Assembly: GCA_030602615.1 (NCBI GenBank)
Contig: JAUVZM010000003.1
Coordinates: 37,707-101,706, forward strand
Direction of reading: 5' to 3'
Source: a bacterium
Lineage (GTDB): Bacteria > Armatimonadota > Zipacnadia > Zipacnadales > Zipacnadaceae
Length of the DNA: 64,000 bases
Made by a program: the position numbers and the translations under genes. Shown one piece after another: positions 48,349-57,935 of the stretch. Every line of letters begins with the position of its first letter. Positions within the stretch are counted from its first letter, which is position 1. The notes beneath the pieces were generated by a model. The model made no database searches and was not told the DNA's origin. It saw only the letters and a program-made list of their open reading frames with translations.

Positions 48349-49569
48349 ATGGACAACCAGCAGGTCATCGAACTGAGCCAGCGCTACCTGATGTCCACCT
48401 ACAGCCCGCTTCCGGTCGCATTTGTGCGCGGGGAGGGCTGTCGGCTGTGGGATGCCGACGGCAACGAATACCTGGACTTTGTGGCGGGCATTGCGGTGGC
48501 CAGTACCGGCCACTGCCATCCCCGCGTGGTAGAGGCCATCTGCGAGCAGGCCGGCCAGCTTATGCACACTTCCAATCTTTACCATATCCCCCTCCAGGCC
48601 CAACTGGCTCAGAGCCTGGCGGAGATATCCTGCGCCGACCGCTGCTTTTTTTGCAACAGCGGGGCCGAGGCTAACGAAGCCGCCATCAAGCTGCCCCGCA
48701 AGTGGGCCGGTATGAACCGCAGTGGCGAGTGTTTTGAGATTATCACGGCGAAGCAGTCCTTCCACGGCCGGACGCTGGCAACGCTCGCCGCCACCGGCCA
48801 GGAGAAATACCAGAAAGCTTTCCGCCCACTGCCCCCCGGCTTCACATACGTCCCCTTTAATGATGTCGGTGCGCTGGAAGAAGCGATAAGCGAGCAAACT
48901 TGCGCGGTGATGCTAGAGTCGATCCAGGTCGAAGGCGGCATCAACGTCCCGGATGACGACTACCTGCCCCGGGTCGAAGACCTTTGCGAGGAGCAGGGCA
49001 TCCTGCTGATACTTGACGAGGTGCAAACGGGAATGGGCCGAACCGGCCACTGGTTCGGGTACGAACATGCCGACATCACCCCTGACATCATCACGCTGGC
49101 CAAGGCGCTGGGATCAGGCTTTCCTATTGGGGCCTGCCTGGCGAAAGAAGGTGTAGCCAGCGCTTTTCAACCCGGCGATCACGCCTCCACCTTCGGCGGC
49201 AATCATCTGGCCTGCGCGGCCGCTCTGGCGACTATTGATGTCATCGAAGACGAGGGCCTGGTGGCTAATGCCGCCCGGATGGGCAGCTTGCTTGAGGAAC
49301 TGCTGACCGACGAGCTAAGCGAAATAGACGGCTTCGACCACATTCGCGGCAGAGGGCTGCTGCTGGCCGTCCAGGTCACGCCCGAGGTCTCGGCGAAGGC
49401 TATTCAGAATCAGTGCCTGGCGGCCGGGCTGGTGGTCAATGCTATGGGCGACGACAGGGTGCGCCTGGCCCCACCACTGATGATCAGCGAAGCCGACTGC
49501 CAGCAGGCCGTAGCGATACTGGCAGATGCAGTCCGCAAAGTGGCCGGCAACTTGAATCCTCACCGATAA
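48349..49569 (+). CDS. Class III aminotransferase (acetylornithine/succinylornithine type)
   Basis: LWDADGNEYLDFVAGIAVASTGHCHPRVV; FFCNSGAEANEAAIKLPRKW; LILDEVQTGMGRTGHWFGYEH; TLAKALGSGFPIGACLAKE. Confidence 0.93.
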   Translation: MDNQQVIELSQRYLMSTYSPLPVAFVRGEGCRLWDADGNEYLDFVAGIAVASTGHCHPRVVEAICEQAGQLMHTSNLYHIPLQAQLAQSLAEISCADRCFFCNSGAEANEAAIKLPRKWAGMNRSGECFEIITAKQSFHGRTLATLAATGQEKYQKAFRPLPPGFTYVPFNDVGALEEAISEQTCAVMLESIQVEGGINVPDDDYLPRVEDLCEEQGILLILDEVQTGMGRTGHWFGYEHADITPDIITLAKALGSGFPIGACLAKEGVASAFQPGDHASTFGGNHLACAAALATIDVIEDEGLVANAARMGSLLEELLTDELSEIDGFDHIRGRGLLLAVQVTPEVSAKAIQNQCLAAGLVVNAMGDDRVRLAPPLMISEADCQQAVAILADAVRKVAGNLNPHR

Positions 49570-49627
49570 TGGTTGACTTCCCAACAGGCCGCCGTGTGCC
49601 ACGGCCCAATTAGCAGAAAGCCCCAGG

Positions 49628-52042
49628 GTGAAGAGGGCTGTGCCGCCAGGAGGGTCGGACGATGCCGGTATGGATGGCAGGCAACCACGCCAATTGAGTT
49701 TGCTGTTTCCCCTCTACTTCGTGGCTGCTGGGCTGGCTGCTGGAGTTGCCCAGGTGATAGTGTTTCGCGAGTTGCTGATCTCCTGCCAGGGCAATGAGGT
49801 GAGCATGGGGATAATCCTGGCCGGATGGCTGCTGTGGGGGGCAGCAGGTGCCATCTGGGCGGGGCGCGCCCGTCGGCTCGGTGACATGAAGGCTTGCCTG
49901 CGCGTCGCCGCGTTGCTCACCTTCCTGCCGGGGCTTGCCCTGATCGCTGGCTTGCTGCTAACCAGCGGCTACAGTTATCTGCTCGCCGTCAAAATCCCTG
50001 AGCTGTTCCCCACTCTCGCCGGAGCCAGCAATTTGTTGACCCAGCTTCTCTCCCTGGAAGCCGGGCAGATGCTCAGCCTGCCGCAGATTGTGATGTTGGG
50101 CTTTGGAGCCACGCTGCTGCCTGCAGCAGTGGCCGGGGCGCAGTTTGCTACCGCGTGCCGTGGCTACGCCCAGCTTCGCAGCCATCAGCCGGATACGGTG
50201 GGCCGCGCCTACGGCCTTGATGCGGTCGGCCACCTGCTGGGCGGCACCGTCCTGGCCTGGCTGGCGCTGCAGGTGATTCCGCCCTTTTCTATGGCAATCA
50301 TAGTGGGCCTGCTGAATGCCGGAGCCGGATTTTGCCTGCTGGCGGCTATCGCCACCGACCAGCAGAGGTGGGTCTACGGGATAGGGACGCTCCTGACCCT
50401 GGCTATGGTGGCCGCGGGCCTGATTGGCCCGCAACTGGCCCGCCAGTGGCGATGGACTGATGAGCAGGTACTGGCCAGTACGCGGACGATATATGGCGAC
50501 ATAACTCTGACCAGATTTGGCGACAGCGGGGTCTATGTCTACAATAATGGCCTGCCGACGGCCAGTTCACCGGCGCCACCATCCCTCACCGTTGACATAG
50601 ACTTCGCCCTGCTTCAGCATCCCAACCCGCAGCGCATTCTGATGGTGGGCGGAGGCGCGACAGGTGGACTGGCAGCAGCACTGCGCCATGAACCGGATCG
50701 CATTGATTATGTCGAGCTGGACCCCGCCATCTTCTCCTTTGTCGCTCCGTGGCTGACCGCTGAGGATCAGGCTGCGCTCACCGATCCCACAGTTCATACG
50801 ATTGCCGGTGACGGCCGCCTGCTTGTGAAGCATCGCAGTCGCCGGCAAGCAGCCAAGTACGATGCCGTGCTGGTGATGCTGCCGCCGCCGGTCAGCGCTC
50901 AGCTCAACCGCTTCTACACGCGCCAGTGGTTTGAGCAGGTCAGGCAGTTGCTGGGGCCGGAAGGTATCGTGGCCTGGCAACTGCCTTCTTCCCAGGTCTA
51001 TCTACACGGACCGCTGCGCAGCCTCAATGTAACGGTGCTGGAGGCCGCCCGCCAGGTATTTGACTCGCTGGTGTATCTGCCCGGCGAGCGGATGACCATC
51101 GTGGCCACGCCGGGCTCAAGCTATCTCACCCAGCATTCCTCGGTGCTGGTTGCCCGCGCCCGGCAGCGCGGCTTGCAGTCCGATATGCTGTACGCATGGC
51201 TGCCGGATATGCTGCGGGCAGATTTTACCGATTACGTTCAGAGCCAAACGCAACTGACCACTCAAGTGCCGATTAACAGCGACCAGCGGCCGGTTGCTTA
51301 CCTCTACCATCAGGCGTGGTGGCTGGAACACCGCCATCCCGGCTGGGGCGAGAAGCTCAGCCGACTGACAAAAGCCGATGCCTGGCAGTGGTGGGGAGCC
51401 GTTGGGGTGTTGCTATTCTTGTGGGCACTCACCTCCTGCACCGGCCCAGGCCGCCGGACAGTGATTCCTATGGCGGTGGCTGTCGCCGGACTGTGTGGGA
51501 TGGCCGCGGAGATGGTTCTGCTCATTAGCTTCCAATCACATTACGGGTATGTCTTCCAGCAGATTGGATTTATTGTGGGCAGCTTTATGGTGGGGCTGGC
51601 AGCGGGAAGCTGGTGGCTGGGCCGGTGGTTGCAGCAGCAGCCATCCCGCCGGTCAATTGCCCTGCGCCTGGCCGGCATTCTGGGCGGCGGAGCAGCGCTT
51701 GTGGCGCTGATGCCGCTGTTGTTGAGTTGGGTATGGCAGGCGGCGCCGGGCCCAGCAGCCGAGGCAGTGGTGTCCTACGGGGTGTATCCTCTCTTAGCAG
51801 GCATCTTGGGGCTGTGGATTGGCGCCGAATTTCCGCTGGCCGCTGCGTTGTGGACAGAAGCCAGACACCAACAGGCCCAGTCGGCCACGGTGCTCTATGG
51901 TGCCGACCTGATTGGCGCAGCCGTCGGGGCGCTAATTGGCGGCACTTTGCTGGTCCCGCTGCTGGGCACACTCCAAACCTGCTGGCTGTTTGCCTTCGTG
52001 GCAGCTTCAGCGGGAGTGGTGGTGCTACTTCGGAGCAAGTAG
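49628..52042 (+). CDS. Polytopic membrane protein with embedded spermidine synthase-like domain
   Basis: N-terminal and C-terminal multi-TM blocks flank ILMVGGGATGGLAAALRHEPDRIDYVELDPAIFSF...TIAGDGRLLVKHRS...YDAVLVMLPPPVSAQLNRFYTRQWFEQVRQLLGPEGIVAWQLPSS; start may be MDGRQPRQL. Confidence 0.85.
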   Translation: MKRAVPPGGSDDAGMDGRQPRQLSLLFPLYFVAAGLAAGVAQVIVFRELLISCQGNEVSMGIILAGWLLWGAAGAIWAGRARRLGDMKACLRVAALLTFLPGLALIAGLLLTSGYSYLLAVKIPELFPTLAGASNLLTQLLSLEAGQMLSLPQIVMLGFGATLLPAAVAGAQFATACRGYAQLRSHQPDTVGRAYGLDAVGHLLGGTVLAWLALQVIPPFSMAIIVGLLNAGAGFCLLAAIATDQQRWVYGIGTLLTLAMVAAGLIGPQLARQWRWTDEQVLASTRTIYGDITLTRFGDSGVYVYNNGLPTASSPAPPSLTVDIDFALLQHPNPQRILMVGGGATGGLAAALRHEPDRIDYVELDPAIFSFVAPWLTAEDQAALTDPTVHTIAGDGRLLVKHRSRRQAAKYDAVLVMLPPPVSAQLNRFYTRQWFEQVRQLLGPEGIVAWQLPSSQVYLHGPLRSLNVTVLEAARQVFDSLVYLPGERMTIVATPGSSYLTQHSSVLVARARQRGLQSDMLYAWLPDMLRADFTDYVQSQTQLTTQVPINSDQRPVAYLYHQAWWLEHRHPGWGEKLSRLTKADAWQWWGAVGVLLFLWALTSCTGPGRRTVIPMAVAVAGLCGMAAEMVLLISFQSHYGYVFQQIGFIVGSFMVGLAAGSWWLGRWLQQQPSRRSIALRLAGILGGGAALVALMPLLLSWVWQAAPGPAAEAVVSYGVYPLLAGILGLWIGAEFPLAAALWTEARHQQAQSATVLYGADLIGAAVGALIGGTLLVPLLGTLQTCWLFAFVAASAGVVVLLRSK

Positions 52043-52107
52043 GTGTTGCAGAAGCGTAATTCCGGCGCTGCTGTCAAACGCGAGGGAAGAAATGCTCCGC
52101 ATTGCTC

Positions 52108-53256
52108 CTACGCTTGCCAGATGCCGGGGATCTTGCAGCCACACTTGGTGCACTTGCCAGTGCGGGGGTCAAGACCGGTGTTGGTAACCTGCGGGCCGTG
52201 GCGCTTGAGGACTTTCATCCCACAGGCCGGACAGTAGGTAGACTCGGCAGGGTCGCCGGGCATATTACCCAGATAGACATAATTCAGGCCTACCTCATAG
52301 GCTAGCTTCCGCAGATTGCGCAGCGTATCTTGTGAGGTGGCCTGGACCCGGCGGAGCTGGTACTTGGGGAAGAACCGCGAGACAAACAGCGGCACATCCG
52401 GGCTCAGACTGTCCAATATCCACTGGCACATCTTCCGGAATGTAGAAGTGTTGTCATTGTACCCGGGGACTACCAGATTGGCCAGCTCCAGCCACGTGCC
52501 GCTCGCGTGGACCTGCTTGATGGCATTCAGCACCGGCTGCAGAGTAGCGCCGACTACATTCTGGTAGAAGTCGTCGGTGAAACCCTTCAGATCGATGACT
52601 ATAGCGTCCATAGCCTGACACAGCTCCGCCAGCGGCTCAGAGCAGATGTAGCCGCCGGTGTGGCAGAGCATCTTGATGCCGCGCGCCCGGGCCAGCCTGG
52701 CGGTGTCCAGGACATACTCAATGCATTGAGTAGGATCGTTGAGTGTGAAGATAATACAGGGGATATTGTTGTCAATGACCTGGTCTACCATACTCTGCGG
52801 CGACAGATCTTTGTTGTCGGTGTGCTGAGGGTAGCTCTGGGTGAACTCCCAGTTCTGGCAGAACTTGCAGTGCAGGTTGCAGCCGGCCGTACCCACGGCG
52901 AGGGTCCGGGTGCCGGGCAGAAAGTGGAAGAAGGGCCCCTTTTCGACTGGATCGCCGTGAATGGCCGTTGGCTTGCCGTAAACTAGCGAAATCATCTGGC
53001 CGCCGAGGTTCATCCGCGCCTTGCAGTTGCCGTGTTGACCGGGTGCCAGCGTACAGTGGCGCGGGCAGAGCTGACACATTATCGTATTGCCCGACTGATT
53101 CTCCCAGAAGCGGGCTGGGTGGCGTGCCACATTGCCAACGGCAGCCTCCACCGGCACTGCACTGGCCAGAAGACCGCAGCCCAGCAGGGCACCCAAGCCC
53201 CCTCGCGCACACTTGGTCAGGAATTCGCGCCGGTCTATCTCATCATATGAAGCCAT
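52108..53256 (-). CDS. amrS: AmmeMemoRadiSam-type radical SAM enzyme (AmrS-like) with twin-arginine signal
   Basis: DRREFLTKCARGGLGALLGCGLLASAVPVEA; CQLCPRHCTLAPGQHGNCKARMN; VGTAGCNLHCKFCQNWEFTQSYP; C-terminal YCPACGMKV...CTKCGCKIPG zinc-ribbon-like. Confidence 0.92.
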   Translation of the reverse strand: MASYDEIDRREFLTKCARGGLGALLGCGLLASAVPVEAAVGNVARHPARFWENQSGNTIMCQLCPRHCTLAPGQHGNCKARMNLGGQMISLVYGKPTAIHGDPVEKGPFFHFLPGTRTLAVGTAGCNLHCKFCQNWEFTQSYPQHTDNKDLSPQSMVDQVIDNNIPCIIFTLNDPTQCIEYVLDTARLARARGIKMLCHTGGYICSEPLAELCQAMDAIVIDLKGFTDDFYQNVVGATLQPVLNAIKQVHASGTWLELANLVVPGYNDNTSTFRKMCQWILDSLSPDVPLFVSRFFPKYQLRRVQATSQDTLRNLRKLAYEVGLNYVYLGNMPGDPAESTYCPACGMKVLKRHGPQVTNTGLDPRTGKCTKCGCKIPGIWQA

Positions 53257-53329
53257 AACAGAAGCATTTCCGTCGTTTACACACGGAGAATGGCTATTAT
53301 TACTCGGCTAACGAGTAGCCCATAGTCAT

Positions 53330-53394
53330 GGGAGGGGCACCCTTGCCCCGACCAGCCTGGCGATTGTCCAGGTCGGGCCAGGGGTGGCCCTCCC
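53330..53394. repeat. Long imperfect inverted repeat (24-bp arms)
   Basis: GGGAGGGGCACCCTTGCCCCGACC - 17 nt - GGTCGGGCCAGGGGTGGCCCTCCC. Confidence 0.75.
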
Positions 53395-53417
53395 ACAGAG
53401 TCGAGTTGGTATGCTCA

Positions 53418-56096
53418 TCAACCCGTATAGACGGGGATACCCCAGTTGAGAAGCTGCTGCCGGGCTGCCCCGCCCAAGGCCCGATCCAACGCCGTGCCGA
53501 AGGCATACATACTGTGAACCTCAGCCGGCATCATCTTAAGTGTCGTAAAGAAGCCGCGGAACGGCTCGCGGTCGATCAGCCGCTCGGCGCTGTAGCCCTG
53601 GACATCGAGAATGGCATATAGCATACCCGCAACAACGTGTCCTCCCAGGTCCTGCTCCTGGCGCTCGGAGCCAGCACGGACGTATTCCTCCAGCGCCTTC
53701 AGTGCTCGGTCACGACTGTTGATGACGGCCTCCTGAGGCAGCTTAACCGCCGAGGCGCTGCCGATAGCATCGCGGGTCTCGGTGACCAGATCATATTGCA
53801 GCGAGGCGGCAGCAAACTGCGCCAGGCCGCTGGTCAGCGCGGGCTGATCGGCCAGCCACGGCTCGGTGGCCTGGCGAACCGCCTTCTGGCTGAGCTGATG
53901 CAGGCCCAGCATCCAGTCGGGCGGATCCTTGATGGCCCAGGCGCTGACACGAACCGGCTCACCCGCCGACTGCTTGCCACTGGGATCAACGTAGATGACA
54001 ACCTTCTCCGGTTGCTCCACCCCCGCCCACTGCTCCAGGATCTCTTGAGCCTGGTCCCAGATGTTGGGCATATTATACTGGCGCATTAGCCCAGCCACGG
54101 TATAGGGAGCGAAGACTACAATGTTCTGGCCAACGTGAGAATCCATATGGATGACGTCCTTGCCGATCATTTCCGTCACTTTGGCTGCATACTCGGAGGC
54201 CGGATCCGTCTGATTGGCAAGCTGCTCGCGGAGCCAGCGCGCATCGTCGGCCAGGCCGCTGTCGGCGAATGAGTTCTCCAGCTCATCAAGCACGGCCAGC
54301 GCCTGGTCAGTGTGCCCCATCTTCTGGTGACAGCGTGCCAGCAGGTATTGGGCGCGCGCCGCAAAATCGCCGGTGCGCAATCGGACCAGCGTGCTCAGCA
54401 ACTGGGCGGCTCTGCCAAACTGCCCTTGATCCATCAGCAGCGCCGCCTGGTAGTAGTAGGCAGGCTGGGTGAGGTCGGGCGGGGCTAGGACATACTTGAT
54501 ATGCTTCTTGTAGGCTTCAAACCAGGCATGCTCGGTATGGCGCTTGTATAGCCTCATCAGGTGCAGGAAAGTGGCCTGGTCATTTTCCAGGCCGGGCGGG
54601 AAGATAACGGGCATGACCGCGGCTGCTTGCGGATACATCTGCTGGGAGACCTCGTAGTTGCTCGGATCGGCATAGAAGCGGATCAACTTCACCAGTGCCT
54701 CGAACTCGTAGCTGCTGCCCGGGAAATGTATGAGCAGTTGCTGGAAGGTATAAGCCGTATCCGGTGTGACCGCCTCCGGATTTTCGTAGGGCGTGTAGGC
54801 TATGGCAATCTGGTATAGAGCGTCATCGCGCAGCGGACTGCCGAAGAAACCGTTAATGATCACCGCGTAGGCGCTGCTGGCATCCTGGATGGCCAGTAGT
54901 TCATCGGCAGCCGGTATCATCCCGCGGGCGCCGGTGGCTATCTGGTAGCTATCGCTGACCCGGTACAAATCGTCAGGCCCCTTGGCCTTGTTGATATCCT
55001 CGAACAGTATCTTCATCTGCCGGTAGCATTCGCCGATGTGGAAGAAGGCGTCGTCCAAGTTGTCATTGCCGGGAAATCGGTCAATGAACTGGCGAAACAG
55101 CGTAACCGCGTCGGCGTACTCGCGGTAGTTCTCGTGATGGCGGGCCCTCTGCCACAAGTCCTGAGCAGCGCGGCTGGGGTCGAACTGGAGTGTATCGTAA
55201 TACTCGCCGGCGGCCCGGTCACCGCGCTGCCGGATCCGCCGCAGCAGACTGTTGGCCTCGCGGATGGCTGCATTGGCCTGACTACTGCCCGGCATCTCAT
55301 AGATGAGAAACTCGTAAGCGTCCAGGGCGGCGCGCTCATGGCCCTGCAGGCGCAAAGCATTGGCGATCATCATCTGGGCATCGTCAGCGCAGTCACACAG
55401 CGGATAGCGAGCAAGCACATCCTCACAGGCGGCGATTGCCTGATCGTAGGCTTCGACTTGATAGTATTTGCGCGCCAGCATGCACAGGGCCTTAGCGCCA
55501 TAGTCGCTAGTCGGATGCAGCTCAGTGAGCGCAATCAGGGCGTCTATCGTCGCCTGCGGATCATCCATCTCATTGTATTCGCCTACCAGGGCCATATAGG
55601 CATCATCAGCGTAGGTGCTGCCCGGAAATTCGTGGACAATGAACTCCAGGGCATCAATCGCCAACAGGTGGTCTTTGTCCCTGACCAGCATCTGGGCCAG
55701 ACCCCAGGCAGCATCATCGGCCATGGGGCTGTGGGGATAGTTATCCAGCAGCAGACTGTAGGCGGAAACCTGGGCGCGGAAATCCTTCTTCACCGAGGTA
55801 ACCCAGGCATAGTGCATCAGGGTATCATCGCCAAAATCGGTGCCCCCGTACTTATCCAGGAAGACCTCATTGGCCTTGATGGCCTGTTGCATCTCTTTGT
55901 GCTGTGAGGGTTTGCAGCAGGTGTAGCTGGCCGTAGCGGCATCGTCGTGCTCGTTGTAATAGGTCAGTCGGCTGGGGAGCAGCGCAATATCGGCGAATGA
56001 AGTACCCAGCACGCCGGATATGTCGAACTCCTCGGCCGCCGCAACTGTACCCAACAACAGGATAAGCAGCACAATCACTATTGCTACACGAGACAT
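53418..56096 (-). CDS. TPR/TolA-like (YbgF-type) secreted repeat protein
   Basis: Signal MSRVAIVIVLLILLLGTVAAA; repeats such as SAYSLLLDNYPHSPMADDAAWGLAQMLV, DALEFIVHEFPGSTYADDAYMALVGEY, DRFPGNDNLDDAFFHIGECYRQ. Confidence 0.85.
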   Translation of the reverse strand: MSRVAIVIVLLILLLGTVAAAEEFDISGVLGTSFADIALLPSRLTYYNEHDDAATASYTCCKPSQHKEMQQAIKANEVFLDKYGGTDFGDDTLMHYAWVTSVKKDFRAQVSAYSLLLDNYPHSPMADDAAWGLAQMLVRDKDHLLAIDALEFIVHEFPGSTYADDAYMALVGEYNEMDDPQATIDALIALTELHPTSDYGAKALCMLARKYYQVEAYDQAIAACEDVLARYPLCDCADDAQMMIANALRLQGHERAALDAYEFLIYEMPGSSQANAAIREANSLLRRIRQRGDRAAGEYYDTLQFDPSRAAQDLWQRARHHENYREYADAVTLFRQFIDRFPGNDNLDDAFFHIGECYRQMKILFEDINKAKGPDDLYRVSDSYQIATGARGMIPAADELLAIQDASSAYAVIINGFFGSPLRDDALYQIAIAYTPYENPEAVTPDTAYTFQQLLIHFPGSSYEFEALVKLIRFYADPSNYEVSQQMYPQAAAVMPVIFPPGLENDQATFLHLMRLYKRHTEHAWFEAYKKHIKYVLAPPDLTQPAYYYQAALLMDQGQFGRAAQLLSTLVRLRTGDFAARAQYLLARCHQKMGHTDQALAVLDELENSFADSGLADDARWLREQLANQTDPASEYAAKVTEMIGKDVIHMDSHVGQNIVVFAPYTVAGLMRQYNMPNIWDQAQEILEQWAGVEQPEKVVIYVDPSGKQSAGEPVRVSAWAIKDPPDWMLGLHQLSQKAVRQATEPWLADQPALTSGLAQFAAASLQYDLVTETRDAIGSASAVKLPQEAVINSRDRALKALEEYVRAGSERQEQDLGGHVVAGMLYAILDVQGYSAERLIDREPFRGFFTTLKMMPAEVHSMYAFGTALDRALGGAARQQLLNWGIPVYTG

Positions 56097-56429
56097 CGCC
56101 ATCCACCTCCATATATCGCTCGCACGCAGCACAATTCTGCCTGCGCTACTGTCGCTAGCTGCAATATTCGCGCTTGGATTGCCTGATTCCTGCCCAGACA
56201 ATCCCACAGATAGCATACCCAGATTCGGGTGGTCTCCACACTCACTTGGACGTCTGCGCCGCCGATTGAGTTCGCTGCGTCATGCACAACCCAGACATCG
56301 TCAGCCAACCGTCGTGCTTCGGACAGCCCAGGAAGCCAGGAAGATTCTAACCTCTCGTCCCTCCCAACACTCACAAGCGGTTGTTGATCATTGATATTGC
56401 ACGTCCGCGCGGCCGGTAAGCAACTCCCC

Positions 56430-56458
56430 TTGACATTAGAACGTATGTTTGATATAAT
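56430..56458 (+). promoter_or_regulatory. Perfect consensus sigma-70 promoter with SOS-like box in spacer
   Basis: TTGACA - 17 nt - TATAAT; spacer contains GAACGTATGTTT (56439-56450). Confidence 0.7.
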
Positions 56459-56490
56459 AGTATGCGGGCATTTGTCAGGAGGCGAGCAGC

Positions 56491-57050
56491 ATGCAAGTTC
56501 AGTCGTTAGAAGCATTCGGGGTTCACCGTGATCTGCTACGGGCGTGGGAAAACAACTACAGTAAAAAGTTACTGCCGGTTCAGGCCGAGGCGGTCGCTGC
56601 CGGGAAGGTGCTCAACGGCACCAGCCTGATAGTATATGCACCGACCGGCATGGATAATAGCCGGGCCCAAGCACCCGGTTGAGCCGCGCAAGGGCGTCCT
56701 GGTTGATTCGGTCTTCCGCTACCAGGAGCATAACAGCAGCACGGTGGGGCAAGAAGACTTTGGCATAGGCATAGATATTGCAGATGCTAGTTTCGGCGGG
56801 GCGGTACTCGCCGTGACGCTGAAGCTCACCGCCCAGGGAGAGCCGACGCTTGTCTTCGTAAAAGACAGGCGGAACAGCGTCCGGTGGGCTTACCGCCTCG
56901 CTGAATGCGTAAACCTCCCTCCTGCCCAGCAAGCCATTGAGCAGCTATCCGCCCTCCCCCCTACCTCCACGCGCCGTCGCCGGGCCACAGCGCGTCAAAA
57001 TCGGATAAGCCGGCTCGCGGGGCTGCACAAAATCCGGCAGATGTGGTATA
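56491..57050 (+). pseudogene. DEAD/DEAH (Ski2-like) helicase remnant with large internal deletion
   Basis: N-term LLPVQAEAVAAGKVLNGTSLIVYAPTG broken before SGKT; frame shift, then KHPVEPRKGVLVDSVFRYQEHNS...LTAQGEPTLVFVKDRRNSVRWAYRLAECVNLPPAQQAIEQL. Confidence 0.75.
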
Positions 57051-57125
57051 CTAAATCTAGCGGTGGCCGCAAAGGCGGTTGCCGCAGTTGTGTATAACCC
57101 AGATAACTGTCCAATCTACACTTCA

Positions 57126-57935
57126 ATGACTCCTGGCATCAAGCTTGTAGCAATTGACCTGGACGGTACGCTGCTGGCCGACAACCACAGCACCGATCCC
57201 GCCAATCTTGCAGCTATCCACCAGGCCGAGGCGCAGGGCGTGACCGTAGTAATCTGCACCGGCCGACCCTATCCGTCAGCAAATCAGGTCGCCAGCCAGC
57301 TTGGGCTGACCGATAATCCCGTTATCAGCTACAACGGTGCGCTCGTCCGGATGCCAGGAGACGGCGAAGTTCTGTTTTCGCAACCAGTGTCAGCAGAGCT
57401 GGCGCAGCAGGTAGTCCAGGATTGTGTCGAGCGCCAGTTGCAGATTCACTATTTTCTGGATGACGTGATGTACGTGCCCCGGGTGAGTGCCGGGGCACGG
57501 CTGTATGGTCAGCGCACGGGGATGCAGCCGGTGCCGGTCGGGGATCTGCGTAAGTTCGCTGGCAGCAGCCCCACCAAAATTCTTGTCTTTGCCGGCCCCG
57601 AAGTTGTGCAGCGCTTACTGCCAGAGTTTGAAAGTCGCTACCACGGCAAGCTGTACGTAACCACCTCTATGCCCGAGTACCTGGAGTTTCTGCACCCCAA
57701 CGTCTCCAAAGGCAACGCCCTCCGTGCTTTGGCCGACCAGCATGGGCTTGACGCCAGCCAGATTATGGCCGTCGGCGACCTGCTCAATGACTTGCCCATG
57801 GTAGAGATGGCCGGGGTTGGCGTCGCTGTCGCTCACGCCGAAGAGGTTCTCCAGTCGGCGGCAGACTATGTCACCGACAGTTCCGAGCAAGCCGTCGCCG
57901 AAGCCCTGGAGCAATTCGTGCTCAACCCACGTTGA
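57126..57935 (+). CDS. Cof-type HAD phosphatase
   Basis: IKLVAIDLDGTLLADNHS...GVTVVICTGRPYPS...VSKGNALRALADQHGLDASQIMAVGDLLNDLPMVEMAGVGVAV. Confidence 0.94.
   Translation: MTPGIKLVAIDLDGTLLADNHSTDPANLAAIHQAEAQGVTVVICTGRPYPSANQVASQLGLTDNPVISYNGALVRMPGDGEVLFSQPVSAELAQQVVQDCVERQLQIHYFLDDVMYVPRVSAGARLYGQRTGMQPVPVGDLRKFAGSSPTKILVFAGPEVVQRLLPEFESRYHGKLYVTTSMPEYLEFLHPNVSKGNALRALADQHGLDASQIMAVGDLLNDLPMVEMAGVGVAVAHAEEVLQSAADYVTDSSEQAVAEALEQFVLNPR

Follow-up and report, generated by a model that had tools for sequence, protein, structure and literature searches.

The window, i.e. the whole stretch of 64,000 nucleotides analysed here from the genome (G000) of an uncultured sediment bacterium, contains a locus which is most probably a pseudogene, the relic of a LexA-controlled Hel308/Ski2-like helicase gene whose promoter has outlived the gene. 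There is nothing unusual about the relic as a pseudogene. Of greater use are the SOS motif and the predicted SOS control of a helicase that is Hel308-like, bears a winged helix of the response-regulator type and, judged from sequence comparison, is a conserved SOS gene of the order. The results provide an evidence-backed LexA motif and a partial SOS regulon for Zipacnadia. No published SOS description of this uncultured Armatimonadota class was found in the literature searched, and a search on SOS in Zipacnadia, or on Hel308 in connection with LexA, returned nothing relevant. The data also suggest a connection, open to experimental test, between LexA and a helicase family that is known for the most part from archaea and eukaryotes, and the locus itself offers a modest natural example of a regulatory site outliving its gene.

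We propose the following scenario. LexA bound to GAAC-N4-GTTY between the -35 and -10 elements would keep the promoter off, and LexA cleavage in response to DNA damage would release it. Prior to the divergence of G000 and its sister species G006 two deletions removed the region from Walker A through DExH and everything after approximately residue 305. As promoter, Shine-Dalgarno sequence and start codon survive, DNA damage should still give rise to a short transcript and a catalytically dead peptide of 63 residues, which is probably without benefit.

A helicase gene broken behind a consensus promoter

The hexamers TTGACA (56430–56435) and TATAAT (56453–56458), both perfect and separated by a 17-nt spacer, form the forward-strand promoter TTGACA-TTAGAACGTATGTTTGA-TATAAT and confirm the exact sigma-70 consensus reported in the earlier, sequence-only reading. 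All 29 positions are identical in G004, which retains the intact gene, and in G006, which carries the same truncated gene. Three sites of the 64-kb window match the sigma-70 consensus with at most one mismatch, compared to 0.08 expected, and 56430–56458 is the sole perfect one. Its spacer harbours the predicted LexA (SOS) box GAACGTATGTTT (56439–56450, + strand), such that a GAAC-N4-GTTC/T palindrome overlaps the promoter as in GAAC-N4-GTTY LexA-regulated promoters. The box by itself is unremarkable (six matches of GAACNNNNGTTY versus 2.1 expected in 64 kb), and its weight derives from the conservation in orthologous upstream regions described below, not from the in-window count. A LexA-like box in the spacer had been noted before, and this part stands; its supposed one-base deviation does not, since the GTTT half is the usual form of the lineage, the genome's own lexA promoter likewise carrying GAAC-N4-GTTT (GAACGAATGTTTGACA).

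A Shine-Dalgarno sequence AGGAGG (56477–56482, + strand), retained in G004 and G006, lies 8 nt before the ATG at 56491 that opens ORF1 (56491–56682, + strand; stop codon TGA at 56680–56682). ORF1 encodes 63 residues, of which the first ~54 are the N-terminus of the Hel308-like helicase and the remainder an out-of-frame tail; as recognized earlier, the well-initiated frame breaks right before Walker A, at the point where intact relatives have APTGAGKT. The helicase sequence picks up in another frame (PVEPRKG...LVFVKDRRNSVRWAYRLAE) in ORF2 (56636–57097, + strand, 153 residues), which overlaps ORF1 in the +1 frame and comprises helicase residues ~204–305, located between the two RecA-like domains, followed by a non-helicase tail. 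Alignment with the intact G004 gene places the first deletion junction at 56646–56658 (+ strand), where the segment from Walker A to about residue 200 including DExH is gone; the junction is the same in G006, whose copy shows a short GTAA repeat there. While the previously described resumption in a different frame holds, a second deletion has to be added, which has removed the C-terminal part of the helicase from about residue 305 onwards, the winged helix included; its junction at 56980–56992 (+ strand) is again found in G006, the gene being full-length in G001.

Because Walker A, DExH, the C-terminal motifs and the winged helix are missing, catalysis is concluded to be gone in the window copy. 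Walker A, DExH and motifs V/VI do not occur there in one frame, whereas the orthologues of G001 and G004 possess them. A programmed frameshift rejoining ORF1 and ORF2 was considered and rejected, as the joined product would still lack Walker A, DExH and motifs V/VI. Neither fragment gave a match in a Pfam search, and a search of the region for RNA elements yielded only a sub-threshold rpfG match (E 0.27). No intact second copy of the helicase was found in G000, a draft of 83 contigs and 93% completeness, which leaves some room for one elsewhere in the genome.

The intact helicase in related genomes

In intact relatives of the class Zipacnadia (Armatimonadota) the gene encodes a Hel308/Ski2-like helicase of ~870 residues with a C-terminal OmpR/PhoB winged helix. 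In the comparison with sister genomes that had been suggested, both G001 and G004 keep the gene. A search of genome_contigs gave a single related contig, JALGTD010000002.1 from a Candidatus Zipacnadia MAG, and its sequence matches G004. In G004 the helicase ORF is uninterrupted, begins with MQVQSLEAFGVHRDLLRTWENNYSKELLPVQAEAVSTGNVLNGTSLIVYAPTGAGKTLVGEM and stands behind the same promoter. G001 contains the full gene (868 residues) in a syntenic arrangement consisting of a divergent TPR gene, the helicase, a HAD gene and two radical-SAM-like genes, and its product shows the Pfam domains DEAD, Helicase_C, a weak archaeal-helicase domain 4 and a C-terminal Trans_reg_C. Of the 201 genomes of the phylum, 26 contain an orthologue at E ≤ 1e-60, and most of these belong to the same order.

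The intact protein resembles the Hel308/HelQ (Ski2-like SF2) repair helicases, which provide its best NCBIfam and PDB matches by sequence (ski2-type, Hel308-related 2zj2, 9e-55) and with which the orthologues share the DExH core, the C-terminal helicase domain and the weak domain-4 match. It differs from them in its bacterial origin, in the C-terminal OmpR/PhoB winged helix and in scoring far below the equivalog cut-offs; the G001 protein reaches 194.6 bits against the cut-off of 1200 of the NCBIfam Hel308 equivalog and is thus not assigned to Hel308 proper. We therefore use the name Hel308-like, the protein being nearest to the Hel308/Ski2 type by sequence. The window copy deviates further by the lack of all catalytic motifs. 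DinG and UvrD are SOS-induced, LexA-controlled helicases; the Zipacnadia gene is comparable in its predicted LexA control, but belongs to a different helicase family with a different architecture.

The fusion of the intact helicase (L067:9229-11835 and orthologues) to an OmpR/PhoB-type winged helix (Trans_reg_C 2.6e-9) is an unusual partnership for a Hel308-like helicase. A further contig, binned in another genus (G011:C156), carries the same promoter and ~70 helicase codons to just past Walker A, beyond which the sequence continues as the C-terminal part of the counterpart of the gene at window positions 49628–52042; the contig might be misbinned or chimeric, or the arrangement might represent a further truncation.

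LexA-type boxes and the predicted SOS regulon

Among the upstream regions of 24 intact helicase orthologues, sampled across the order and class, 17 contain an exact GAAC-N4-GTTY within 160 nt of the start codon, in most cases between -35 and -10, and in another five the box has one mismatch. Given a background rate of ~0.019 boxes per region, the 17 exact boxes correspond to a binomial P of ~2e-24, a guide value as the simple binomial ignores relatedness. The genome of the window encodes a canonical, intact LexA (TIGR00498, 219.8 bits) with Ala-Gly in GTVPAGEP, SGDSM and VKHF, which from family knowledge we take to contain the cleavage site and the catalytic Ser and Lys. The box of the same class at its own lexA promoter has a counterpart at lexA in most relatives. 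The proposal that the helicase was once an SOS gene controlled through a LexA-type box is supported by the boxed orthologues and by a LexA with its own box in the genome. The recommended scan for GAAC-N4-GTTC/T boxes, performed by pattern searches, yielded six sites of GAACNNNNGTTYGAYA in G000 versus none for reversed controls, and this pattern is strongly enriched over the family. Moreover, the composite promoter TTGACANNNGAACNNNNGTTYGNTATA precedes second Y-family polymerase genes in five genomes (G002, G005, G006, G007 and G009), and its reversed control has no match in any of 15 genomes.

As further observations on these genes, G005 has two second Y-family polymerase genes with a TTGACA-box-TATA promoter, and G000 has no such gene, only one DinB-like gene. 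The composite promoter is also found before a DUF6504 gene in G012 and G013; in G012 this gene is followed by a PHP-domain polymerase-like ORF, an arrangement that looks like a DnaE2/ImuC-type mutasome operon. In four genomes of the genus (G000, G003, G004 and G006) an MreB-like gene (Pfam MreB_Mbl 7.5e-71), a candidate SOS-controlled cell-shape gene, has a conserved box of the LexA type (GAACGTATGTTTGATA or GAACATACGTTTGATA; in G000 at C72:7437-7452) ~120–140 nt upstream. No LexA-type box was detected near recA (G000:C2:2251, and in the family) within the flanks examined, unlike in most SOS systems.

GAAC-N4-GTTC is the LexA/SOS motif (Cheo-type) of Bacillus and other Gram-positives (PMC3323433). 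The predicted Zipacnadia regulon agrees with the Bacillus/Gram-positive one in the palindrome, in the position of the box in or beside a sigma-70 promoter, in the autoregulation of lexA and in the inclusion of translesion polymerase genes (PMC3323433). It differs in the second half of the box, which is often GTTT, in the missing box near recA, and in the addition of the Hel308-like helicase and, in this genus, probably of the MreB-like gene.

Alternative readings of the locus

The conservation of the 5′ end between G000 and G006 counts against the pseudogene reading. No change is found at the 29 positions from -35 to -10 and three at the 73 positions of promoter plus leader, compared to 14 of 165 in ORF1, 43 of 319 plus indels in the body and 75 of 810 in the neighbouring HAD gene (pS 0.22). 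For small numbers from one species pair, and on the assumption that the deletion is older than the G000/G006 split, promoter and body differ at a Fisher P of ~0.03, and ORF1, whose changes are mostly silent (pN 0.025, pS 0.188), shows three amino-acid changes in 52 codons versus ~7 expected under neutrality (P ~0.01). In simulations of neutral change P lies between 0.007 and 0.011 when the 52 clean codons are considered and between 0.005 and 0.010 with 55 codons. Amino-acid changes in the body, where the deletions and the G006 frameshift are located, are not distinguishable from neutral (P 0.11–0.16). From gene to gene pS ranges from 0.17 to 0.53, which suggests recombination. These patterns hint at, rather than prove, a continued use of the promoter and the 63-residue peptide; selection may still act on the 5′ end.

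The truncated unit could accordingly have been kept for an SOS-induced functional peptide, e.g. a small regulatory or binding protein. We regard such a use, already raised in the sequence-only reading, as quite unlikely: the identical 63-residue ORF with its stop in G006 and the bias towards silent changes speak for it, but the signal is weak on its own, comprising only 10–14 changes, the peptide ends in ~9 residues that are read out of frame by accident, no Pfam family is matched, and from this locus G005 has lost the promoter as well as the helicase N-terminus. Hardly likely is also the more far-reaching version, according to which the two deletions converted an SOS helicase gene into an SOS-induced small-protein gene, with promoter, Shine-Dalgarno sequence and ~54 codons selected in at least two species and the peptide acting in the damage response.

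Alternatively, the promoter might persist because read-through places the downstream HAD-family phosphatase gene (Hydrolase_3, intact; 57126–57935, + strand) under SOS control, as had likewise been suggested. This gene is the next one on the same strand, 440 nt after ORF1, and the gene order is the same in G001 with its intact helicase. Read-through is physically possible because the interval contains no proper terminator, only a weak hairpin (57060–57085) without a proper T-run. However, the HAD gene has its own promoter-like element (TGCACA-N17-TATACT with TG before the -10; 57024–57052, + strand), similar in G001 and G006, it is found at a distance from the helicase in G005 as well as in other genera, and no clear LexA box was found upstream of it in any of 11 genomes. 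A role of read-through in retaining the promoter is therefore scarcely probable.

An assembly error disrupting a gene that is in fact intact would be conceivable for a draft genome in many contigs; this explanation is very improbable and was rejected, as G006, a separate and separately binned species, displays both deletion junctions at ~88% identity. In G006 ORF2 also starts at the same point, and a deletion of 7 nt has in addition shifted the frame of the body. Two common junctions make common descent the simplest reading. The loss of the helicase is thus, according to this comparison, neither an assembly error nor very recent, and the earlier attribution to a recent event is not upheld. At the same locus G005 retains only a relic of ~100 nt. 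A chance match of the SOS-like box inside an ordinary strong promoter has a negligible probability: although about two such boxes are expected in a window of this length, its position is conserved in the orthologous promoters and it recurs at lexA and Y-family polymerase genes.

Two further observations concern the sister genomes. G006 carries two additional short helicase relics elsewhere (on C49 and C2); both are interrupted by stops, and neither has a recognisable promoter in its vicinity. They may derive from earlier extra copies or from rearrangements. The segment corresponding to window positions 49561–56418, with synthase-like, radical SAM and TPR genes, adjoins the helicase in G000, G001 and G005 and is absent there in G004 and G006, a distribution at odds with that of the shared helicase truncation.
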